A DNA stretch of 38,463 bases. Origin: Thermodesulfovibrionia bacterium. GTDB lineage: Bacteria > Nitrospirota > Thermodesulfovibrionia > UBA6902. Positions 3,549 through 24,702 of the stretch are shown in pieces. Under the pieces are notes generated by a model. It had not been told where the DNA came from and did not search any database. It saw only the letters and a program-made list of their open reading frames with translations. The stretch lies in assembly GCA_945786855.1 (NCBI GenBank), contig CALZGI010000029.1, positions 1 through 38,463 of the forward strand, given 5' to 3'. The translations under genes were made by a program, and so were the position numbers. Each line of letters opens with the position of its first letter. Within the stretch, counting starts at the first letter, position 1.

Positions 3549-3895
3549 GGGGGCGACTGGCTTCGACGAGGGTTATGAGGTCCAGGTCGCATGCCGTGGC
3601 GCTGTCACCACGATAAAAGGCAGCACAACACACAAACGCCAACAACGAACTGGCACTCGCAGCTTAATAAAGCTGTGCGCTTCCCCGGGAACACCTGCTA
3701 CCCGGACCGAGGCGTCGACGAGCAGGCTGGTCTGAAGAAGTTTCCCTTGGTCTTCAGGCGAGATTGAAAGGGATTGGATGGGGGAGAGCCTTCTTGCCGG
3801 CGAGCCCGAATCTGAAATTCAAAAGGTAAGATAAGCATGTAGACGCCTGGATGTAGTGCTTTCGGACGCGGGTTCGATTCCCGCCGCCTCCACCA
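3549..3895 (+). ncRNA. ssrA: Transfer-messenger RNA (tmRNA)
   Basis: tmRNA rescues ribosomes stalled on broken messages and tags the unfinished protein for proteolysis. The 5' end GGGGGCGACTGGCTTCGACG is the standard one-piece tmRNA start, and the 3' end has a T-arm (GGTTCGATTCC) and an encoded CCA. The acceptor stem pairs GGGGGCG with CGCCTCC with one G-U pair. The mature length is 347 nt. The tag frame at 3638-3670 reads ANNELALAA followed by two TAA stops, if the resume codon is GCC at 3638. The hydrophobic ALAA end is the protease-recognised degron. The mRNA-like part and flanking helices appear complete, and a terminator follows. Confidence 0.98.
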
Positions 3896-22636: not shown

Positions 22637-23221
22637 CTATTCGATCTTATTTCTTCGCCTCAAGAAACCTTTGGCTGCCATTATGATCCCCCCTGTAAGG
22701 AAGAGAGCGGAACTAACAGGTTCCGGGGCAACCGCCGGGAGAATTGTGTCACCATCACGCACGGCCCATGCATATCTCTTTAAATCTTTGGAACTGATAT
22801 CCTGAGATCCGTACTTGAAACTGAACCTCCATGCATTTGTTGAATCATCAGGATCTTCATTCCCGGACCAGTACATGAAATTTTTTACATCCGTAAACTG
22901 GCCAGGAGACTCATATGTAATCCCGGAAGATTCAAAAAGGTGACCCATTTCGCTGTCTGTACAGCTTTTCCCGGTGCAGGAGATATCTGTGGCCGGCAGA
23001 CGCCAGTCCTGAAAGTCCTGATAGTCAAGACTTTCTGCCCAGTTGATGGCATTATCCCAGTTCATGGTGATGCCTCCATAGTTTGCATTCCCCATCCAGG
23101 TGATATCCAGAATATCATCATAGATGAGACCTGCTCCCCGATCATGGAGTGCAGCTTTCGCCGAATGTGTAAAACCAAGAAGTAAGAACATCGTAATAAA
23201 CAGACTTAATAATCTTTTCAT
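22637..23221 (-). CDS. PEP-CTERM sorting-domain protein with DUF1566-like domain
   Basis: This 194-residue secreted protein has a Sec signal peptide (residues 1-23, ending SAKA). A central domain has the DWRLPATD motif (about 83-90) and the YAWAVRDGD end typical of DUF1566/lectin-like secreted domains. A C-terminal PEP-CTERM tail follows from about residue 165: APEPVSSALFLTGG, a hydrophobic segment, then basic RRRNK. Exosortase would cleave near PEP and attach the protein to the surface or extracellular matrix. No exosortase gene is in the window. Two cysteines (about 91 and 96) may form a disulfide. The gene is single on its strand, behind a 240-nt leader with a strong promoter. The start is ATG 23221, with a GGCGGGGG site. 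Confidence 0.9.
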   Translation of the reverse strand: MKRLLSLFITMFLLLGFTHSAKAALHDRGAGLIYDDILDITWMGNANYGGITMNWDNAINWAESLDYQDFQDWRLPATDISCTGKSCTDSEMGHLFESSGITYESPGQFTDVKNFMYWSGNEDPDDSTNAWRFSFKYGSQDISSKDLKRYAWAVRDGDTILPAVAPEPVSSALFLTGGIIMAAKGFLRRRNKIE

Positions 23222-23460
23222 TTTCCCCCGCCTTTCATTTAATGAAATTGTTAGTTGATTGTAGACGCAATAATCCTTTTGCTAAGACGCACCGGTTGTG
23301 TGCCGGGACTCGTCTTTTGCCACGCGTCCTCCCAAATACTGCCTCTGTACGTACAGGTCGACCTGTAGTTTGGTACTGCTTTACGCTGTTTAGGGAAAAG
23401 TAGGCAGAATTGCCAGTGTGGTGTTACTCTCTTTTACTTGTTCCCATGTCCCCGAATGTG
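23222..23460 (-). promoter_or_regulatory. Putative structured 5' leader (riboregulator candidate) of PEP-CTERM gene
   Basis: The promoter at 23467-23495 implies a leader of about 240 nt. On the minus strand it can fold as: GGCA/TGCC hairpin (23403-23414); CCAAA/TTTGG helix (23369-23373 with 23332-23336) enclosing a TACAGG-TCGA-CCTGTA hairpin (23352-23367); and AAGACG/CGTCTT plus CCGG/CCGG (23311-23316 and 23284-23289, with 23303-23306 and 23292-23295). GACGC (23324-23328) could instead pair with GCGTC at 23286-23290 or 23264-23268. TTTTCCC (23393-23399) is complementary to the GGGAAAA at the ribosome site and start codon. I recognise no known riboswitch class. Folding is by eye. Confidence 0.5.
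23345..23367. promoter_or_regulatory. Overlapping palindromes in the PEP-CTERM leader
   Basis: CTGTACGTACAG (23345-23356) is a perfect 12-bp palindrome, and TACAGGTCGACCTGTA (23352-23367) is a perfect 16-bp palindrome sharing five bases with it. They could form a protein-binding site or an RNA hairpin. The core TGTACGTA recurs at 23742-23749 in the same intergenic region. Confidence 0.5.
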
Positions 23461-23466
23461 TGTTCT

Positions 23467-23495
23467 ATTAAAATAAAGATATCTGTTTTTGTCAA
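23467..23495 (-). promoter_or_regulatory. Strong sigma-70-type promoter for the PEP-CTERM gene
   Basis: On the minus strand a perfect TTGACA (23490-23495) and TTTAAT (23467-23472, five of six) are 17 bases apart. Transcription would start near 23460 and read into the PEP-CTERM gene. Confidence 0.75.
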
Positions 23496-23943
23496 GTATT
23501 TTCAAAGAGTGCTATTAAATTTTTGTCCAGCCTGTCCCTCTATGGTTTATGAATAAATGCAAAATCTGTGCCATAGAACAGCGGTTTGTATACTGCGTAA
23601 TCCGCATGTTTTTCCCGACACGGAGAATGCTGTAACTGTATAATTATAATAATAAAAACACTCACTGACCGAAATCATCTGAATATGATGTAAAGTTTCG
23701 CTGTCATTCGCCCGATTATATAGTTGTGAGACATGACACAGTGTACGTATGTGCAGCTTTTGCCATGTCACAGGAATATGTTATTGTAAGGCGAATGTGC
23801 GGCAAGGGGGAATAATCTGTAATTGTAATGTGTTAATGTTCTGAGAAATTCTACCGTGCCTGTCTTAGATAAAACGAACTATTTACATAATATCGCATAG
23901 ATCATCTGCTTCAGGAAGATAACCGGTTTTTGAGAGGTATGTT
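23496..23943 (+). other. Non-coding region upstream of the acyltransferase gene
   Basis: With the PEP-CTERM leader it makes a gap of 722 bp between divergent genes. No gene is supported here: frames such as 23547-23771 on the minus strand have poor composition and no ribosome site. A GACATG...CATGTC inverted pair (about 23730-23767) and one TGTACGTA copy (23742-23749) are visible. CATAAT near 23887 is a possible -10 for the acyltransferase gene but its -35 is poor. Confidence 0.5.
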
Positions 23944-24702
23944 ATGTCACTAACTGCGTACACAGTCTCCGATGAAAAGGACTTGCATAAAATTTACAGA
24001 TTACGGTACAAAATCTATTGCTACGAATGGGGTTTTGAAAAACCGGAAAACCACCCTGATGAAATTGTGACCGATATTTATGATCAGCATGCCCTGCACT
24101 TTGCCGTTAAGAATGACGTGCAGAAAATTGTTGGGGCGATCAGCCTGATTCTCCCCTCGCCGGAGGGATTCCCGGCTGAAAAATACTGTGAGCTTAATAT
24201 TGATCCCGATAAAATTTCGGGGGAGTCGGTTGCCGAAATTTCTCGCCTGGTAATTCACAGGAGCTGCAGAAGAAGGTCGGAAGATAAATATATTTACGGA
24301 CCCGATGAAGAGAGAAGAAGCATCGGGAATTTTAATTTTCCTTCCAGTTATTCAAGGAACACATCTTCTTACAGGAGGGCCGATGACAAATTCAGGCACA
24401 AAGGTTCCAGACGTACACATGACTCATATAGTGAACGACGGCGGAGGCACGAAGTAATCATTAATCTATATAAAGCCATATATCGGGAAAGCAAGCGAAG
24501 ACAGATAACTCACTGGTATGGAGTGATGACGAAAGGGGTCATGTTATTGCTCGACAAGTTCGGTTTTCATTTCAAGGCTATCGGTGATCCTGTTGATTTC
24601 CACGGAATTCGTACGCCATTTCTGGGAGATATAGAAAGCATGGAGCAGAGAATGTCCGATAGTAATCCGGAACTGTATGCAGAGCTTACAGCAGATTTAT
24701 GA
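23944..24702 (+). CDS. PEP-CTERM/exosortase system-associated acyltransferase
   Basis: This 252-residue GNAT-fold protein resembles autoinducer (homoserine-lactone) synthases. The N-terminus has YRLRYKIYCYEWGFE (18-32), as in LuxI-type and N-acyl amino acid synthases, followed by HFAVKNDVQKIVGAISLI and AEISRLVIHRSCRRR (98-111), the acyl-CoA-binding core strand. Residues 108-169 are an unusually basic and Ser/Tyr-rich insertion (RRSEDKYIYGPDEERRSIGN through SYSERRRRHE). Then VIINLYKAIYRESKRR and HWYGVMTKG complete the fold. Such enzymes cluster with exosortase/PEP-CTERM genes, but their product is unknown. The ATG at 23944 has a GAGAGG site six bases before. The following lipoprotein gene is 150 bp downstream. 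Confidence 0.88.
   Translation: MSLTAYTVSDEKDLHKIYRLRYKIYCYEWGFEKPENHPDEIVTDIYDQHALHFAVKNDVQKIVGAISLILPSPEGFPAEKYCELNIDPDKISGESVAEISRLVIHRSCRRRSEDKYIYGPDEERRSIGNFNFPSSYSRNTSSYRRADDKFRHKGSRRTHDSYSERRRRHEVIINLYKAIYRESKRRQITHWYGVMTKGVMLLLDKFGFHFKAIGDPVDFHGIRTPFLGDIESMEQRMSDSNPELYAELTADL

Follow-up and report, generated by a model that had tools for sequence, protein, structure and literature searches.

A conserved ribosome-binding-like tag near the predicted mRNA 5' end of a Nitrospirota PEP-CTERM gene with predicted sigma-54 and sigma-70 promoters

The leader of a PEP-CTERM gene from a Thermodesulfovibrionia bacterium carries a short tag resembling a ribosome-binding site close to the predicted 5' end of its transcripts, and comparison with orthologous leaders establishes this tag, its place and its orientation, together with two predicted promoters, one of the sigma-54 and one of the sigma-70 type. 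Judged by this comparison, it is the tag at the predicted RNA 5' end that selection has kept, and not the riboswitch folds that had originally been proposed for the leader. Our preferred explanation, to which we assign a probability of roughly 40%, is that the tag is a docking site for ribosomes at the mRNA 5' end, the gene being transcribed from a PrsR-driven sigma-54 promoter and a sigma-70 promoter; the docking and its effect are our best guess. A false riboswitch candidate is thereby removed, and the finding that the tag keeps to the predicted mRNA 5' end under both types of promoter makes the function of the leader testable in a largely uncultured group.

Results

The gene and its neighbourhood

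The window analysed here is an entire contig of 38,463 nucleotides, from a genome of 3.5 Mb that is 97.7% complete; the features of the locus are collected in Table 1. Named homologues of the DUF1566 protein, from Nitrospirae/Nitrospiraceae assemblies, share 59, 56 and 54% identity with it, and relatives of the gene at E <= 1e-20 are found in 30 genomes of the family. The sorting tail is plain by eye in the protein sequence (APEPVSSALFLTGG..RRR) and scores 13.7 bits with TIGR02595, below the 16-bit cut-off. The divergent acyltransferase gene stands next to it at 21 of the 26 orthologous loci; sugar-nucleotide genes are also close by, as is one for a PEP-CTERM-system ATPase (TIGR03015).

Table 1 Features of the DUF1566 locus, in window coordinates
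Feature	Position	Strand	Remarks
DUF1566/Lcl_C protein gene	22637..23221	-	194 aa, C-terminal PEP-CTERM sorting tail; PF07603 E 2.7e-14
Ribosome-binding region of the DUF1566 gene, GGCGGGGGAAA	23222..23232	-	GAAAGG-type sequence directly 5' of ATG, kept in orthologues
AAGACG and CGTCTT	23316-23311 and 23289-23284	-	Second hairpin of the original prediction
CCGG, two copies	23306-23303 and 23295-23292	-	Second hairpin of the original prediction
CCAAA and TTTGG	23373-23369 and 23336-23332	-	Strands of the originally predicted helix
TACAGGTCGACCTGTA	23367-23352	-	Originally predicted hairpin
GCAGTA, two copies	23379-23374 and 23342-23337	-	
TTCCC	23393..23397	-	3' strand of hairpin with GGGAA 23445-23441
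TTTTCCC	23399-23393	-	Complementary to GGGAAAA 23227-23221
5'-proximal tag GGGGACATGGGAA	23441..23453	-	Predicted +6 of sigma-70 transcript (GGGGACATGG)
Sigma-70-type promoter TTGACA-N17-TTTAAT	23495-23467	-	
Degenerate tag AGGGACAGG	23531..23539	-	About +8 of predicted sigma-54 transcript
Sigma-54 promoter TGGCACAGATTTTGCA	23558-23573	-	Perfect match; predicted start about 23547
GAATGACAGCGAAACTTTACA	23689..23709	-	Like the activator motif ending TTTACA of Haft 2006 (PMC1569441)
Conserved block TGTGACATGGCAAAAGCTGCACA...CACTGTGT	23736..23772	-	In the region separating the PEP-CTERM and acyltransferase genes; many genomes
PEP-CTERM/exosortase-associated acyltransferase	23944..24702	+	Divergent; TIGR03694 173.6 bits

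Two predicted promoters and a long leader

Leader counts refer to a set of 26, the window plus 25 orthologous leaders from one Nitrospirota family, and since they come from related genomes they do not represent independent events. The original prediction had placed a long leader behind a TTGACA-N17-TTTAAT promoter, and this is borne out by the relatives, in which the counterpart TTGACA-N16-18-TATAAA is kept (in 9 of the 26 leaders, compared to a mean of 0.02 in shuffles), with the TTTAAT of the window occupying the position of TATAAA in sister genera. The TTTAAT box is absent from the promoter scanner's list because it has no A at position 2. About 80 bp upstream of this promoter lies a sigma-54 site that the original prediction had missed. 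Sites with at most one mismatch and with the GG and GC kept occur in 17 of the 26 leaders, compared to 0.09 in dinucleotide shuffles, and the whole genome contains 12 perfect sites versus none in a reversed control. The distance from the sigma-54 box to the start codon is 247-391 nt in the orthologues, and 417 nt for a box with two mismatches. The long leader is thus probably real and made from both promoters, all start sites being predicted ones, from which its length would probably be about 240 nt with the sigma-70 promoter and 325 nt with the sigma-54 promoter. Perfect sigma-54 boxes also precede other genes of this genome (L007, L014, L016, L017), some of which look PilZ-domain-like and one flagellar hook-length-like, by sequence impression alone.

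The arrangement resembles the sigma-54/PrsR PEP-CTERM promoters (PMC1569441; PMC9850573) in its single PEP-CTERM gene, large upstream region and -24/-12 box, in the presence of PrsR in the genome, and possibly in an upstream activator-like TTTACA block. In the Haft 2006 study, the motif pair was confined to Proteobacteria; there the mean distance of the sigma-54 motif from the start codon was 71 nt and the greatest 221 nt, and the activator motif, of 17 nt and with TTTACA at its end, preceded the sigma-54 motif by 32-92 nt (PMC1569441); the pepA gene of Aquincola is RpoN-dependent and has a mapped -24/-12 promoter (PMC9850573). Unlike the promoters described by Haft (PMC1569441), those found here belong to Nitrospirota, have their box 247-417 nt away from the start codon, and are joined by a sigma-70 promoter and a 5' tag. 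Two proteins of the genome match the PrsR family TIGR02915 above cut-off (628 and 597.5 bits), and two hallmarks of a sigma-54-dependent PEP-CTERM promoter, a -24(GG)/-12(GC) box upstream of the gene and a PrsR-type activator in the genome, are present. At the level of sequence, this points to Nitrospirota as a second phylum, besides the Proteobacteria for which it was described, where sigma-54 and PrsR control PEP-CTERM surface proteins.

The proposed riboswitch folds

All strings on which the original prediction was built are found on the minus strand where it had placed them. It had read them as an aptamer of riboswitch type, in which helices exclude one another and the start codon can be sequestered. 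What survives of this reading is that the leader of this PEP-CTERM gene is long, conserved at its start and probably regulatory; the aptamer, the exclusive helices and the sequestered start do not. In an alignment of six leaders with a common 5' domain, the named helices have standard pairs in 51% of the cells of the five homologous leaders, compared to 39-59% when slid by 1-4 columns; the window row was left out of this figure, since the structure had been read from that row and including it inflates the count. The proposed pairing of TTTTCCC with the start-codon region retains 0-3 of its 7 pairs in the homologues. A lack of conserved pairing across homologous upstream regions, which the prediction had itself named as refuting it, is largely what is seen for its helices. 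Nor is the leader unusually stable: its fold (246 nt, -56.5 kcal/mol) does not exceed chance when set against those of shuffled sequences (-54.2 +/- 4.5 kcal/mol; z -0.52, repeat z -0.39).

A scan of the window leader and ten homologous loci against Rfam, using gathering and E-value thresholds, gave no leader match. The matches in the whole scan were a tmRNA gene elsewhere in the window (3549-3895, plus strand, tag peptide ANNELALAA) and one chance match. When run over 229 genomes of the class, a covariance model built on the first 114 nt (the 5' domain) recovered only its six training leaders, which precede the same gene throughout in four genera, with the next best hit at E 0.06.

In common with riboswitch leaders (those for c-di-GMP and others in Rfam), this leader is long and stands before a matrix-related gene; it is also partly conserved, and has a 5' hairpin with support in the first tag copies. 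Where it differs is in the missing Rfam match, in the confinement to a single gene in four genera, and in the lack of excess stability and of a conserved aptamer-like fold, the only pairing with support, of moderate strength, being that one short hairpin. A riboswitch is therefore unlikely for the DUF1566 leader, and we give the proposal of a ligand-sensing RNA very little credence.

A tag at the predicted 5' end

The sequence GGGGACATG occurs in 26 copies in 19 of the 26 leaders, representing eight genera (shuffle mean 0.05), and always in the sense orientation (26 sense, 0 antisense). Counted from the predicted sigma-70 start, it (or a near variant, GGGGACG or GGGGATG) begins at +0 to +12 in 11 of 12 leaders, compared to about 1.0 expected at random. 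Among leaders in which no sigma-70 box was recognised, six (L070, L077, L080, L088, L092, L096) have a GGGGACA-like sequence at -2 to +10 of the predicted sigma-54 start, one (L078) has it at +18, and two (L082, L094) have their first copy at about +100. The window carries a tag behind each of its two predicted starts (Table 1), with the degenerate sigma-54 copy at the same offset as GGGGACA/AGGGACA in L077, L088 and L092. In L081, L087, L089, L090 and L093 neither a sigma-54 nor a sigma-70 promoter was recognised. Several leaders contain one or two extra copies of the tag 100-190 nt further downstream, which a pure 5'-end role leaves unexplained. In one locus (L095), 500 nt ahead of the start codon, a recognisably similar unit of roughly 100 nt that opens with GGGGACATGG stands three times in tandem, and two such units are seen in L079 and L091.

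The fixed place of the tag just past the predicted start of two promoter types could be that of a DNA operator or an element of the initial transcribed region, at which promoter escape is controlled or transcription repressed, by a protein or through pausing of the polymerase around +5 to +15. The extra copies could make looping possible, and the core GACATGG is present in the upstream block too. This is a serious rival, but one that we consider rather unlikely: the tag is never found reversed, it is palindromic in genus g7 only, and in genus g13, where ATGGCAAAA is missing from the upstream block, the leader still has its tag.

The tag does not mark a genome-wide regulon here, GGGGACATGGNAA having yielded 27 sites versus 33 in the reversed control, and the 19 upstream regions of more distant DUF1566 paralogues contained no GGGGACATG and one sigma-54-like site. 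Another PEP-CTERM gene (L009; G000:C26:25410-25425) has a perfect sigma-54 box with a TGTGACATGGCA element upstream; its leader is short, and the GGGGACATG tag is absent.

Pairing with the ribosome

The mean energy of pairing with the anti-Shine-Dalgarno sequence is -8.2 kcal/mol for the tag, compared to -9.1 kcal/mol for the genes' own sites and -3.6 kcal/mol for other leader ATGs. The sequence GGGGACATG also forms the actual start of genes elsewhere, namely radC and a response-regulator gene in the relative G018 (L100, L106; GGGGACATGGGAAA as ribosome site and start) and a REP-type transposase gene in this genome, and is therefore usable by ribosomes. The GGGAA directly after GGGGACAT can pair with a downstream TTCCC, for which the comparative support is moderate: for the first tag copies, 24 of 3000 swapped partners and 0 of 1500 shuffles reached as high a pairing, and with one leader per genus the signal is weaker (100 of 3000 swaps, 2 of 1500 shuffles). 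After later tag copies, no such pairing signal was found.

With its strong ribosome site and ATG, GGGGACAUG could open short upstream ORFs that control the gene through translation, stalling or attenuation, and the resulting peptides are indeed alike within genera (e.g. MKIRNRSQP/METRNRSQP and MANENTRQLT/MANENTRPLT). Between genera, however, they are unlike, the frame shifts inside genus g7, and their lengths match those of other leader ATGs (median 9 in both). A coding test likewise gave no clear frame signal, with a synonymous share in the best group of 0.38 in frame 0 versus 0.37 in frame 2, and we rejected these ORFs as coding. Since they are unconserved, frame-shifting and of usual length, docking is favoured over a specific leader peptide, and control through such ORFs appears improbable to us.

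One could also speculate that the tag is the target of a small RNA or an RNA-binding protein, the remaining leader being a mere spacer, as would befit a sense-only, exposed 5' site that is repeated in some leaders. No partner has been found or is known, however, and ANGGA, the core motif of CsrA, is not matched by most copies, for which reason a CsrA site was rejected; we rate the chances of this explanation as small.

Docking as the preferred explanation

According to the docking explanation, an enhancer-binding activator, probably PrsR, would drive the sigma-54 promoter, with the downstream sigma-70 promoter as a second source of mRNA. Only a few bases into the transcripts would come GGGGACAUG, or a variant of the AGGGACA kind, which can pair with the 16S rRNA at its 3' end. 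A 30S subunit or initiating ribosome might then dock at this 5'-terminal tag, just ahead of the small GGGAA/UUCCC hairpin, and the docked ribosome would shield the mRNA or prime translation of an abundant surface protein. Against this explanation stand the GGGG-to-AUG spacing, which is short for efficient initiation, the two leaders with a first copy about 100 nt in, the five leaders with neither promoter, and four other PEP-CTERM loci of this genome that have sigma-54 boxes and no tag.

A precedent is provided by the cry3A mRNA, which is stabilised by a Shine-Dalgarno-like site with no part in directing translation (PMC4113751). The most likely role of the conserved tag, ribosome docking that protects the message or primes it, would resemble that of this STAB-SD: both have a Shine-Dalgarno-like 5' sequence, which on the predicted start would pair with 16S rRNA at the mRNA 5' end, a long leader, a position far from the gene's start, and two transcripts (PMC4113751). 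There are differences, in that the tag is here followed by an AUG, and that RNase J (TIGR00649) was not found in the 97.7% complete genome, in which RNase Y is present. Since blocking of RNase J is the known effect of STAB-SD, we do not class the tag as a member. A more specific proposal, which we regard as tentative and rather unlikely, is that the GGGGACAUG docking tag, selected to lie within about 10 bases of the start under either sigma factor, protects or primes the mRNA by a route other than that of STAB-SD and RNase J, an enzyme that seems to be missing from at least this one of the bacteria concerned.

Conserved blocks upstream of the promoters

A conserved block starting TGTGACATGGCAAAAGC, in the window TGTGACATGGCAAAAGCTGCACA...CACTGTGT, is located 188-201 bp above the sigma-54 box in eleven genomes, and at other distances elsewhere. 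It is a candidate enhancer, or may be a control region common to both divergent genes. When searched for as a genome-wide regulon, with 3 mismatches allowed, the upstream block occurred at control level. In the relatives L091 and L095, an inverted repeat CACTGTGAC...GTCACAGTG is seen. Similarity to the activator motif of Haft 2006 (PMC1569441) is shown by a second block, near AAACTTTACA, with AAACTTTA found about 120 bp above the sigma-54 box in several genera. In the window, GAATGACAGCGAAACTTTACA lies about 115 nt from that box, compared to the 32-92 nt published for the motif (PMC1569441).
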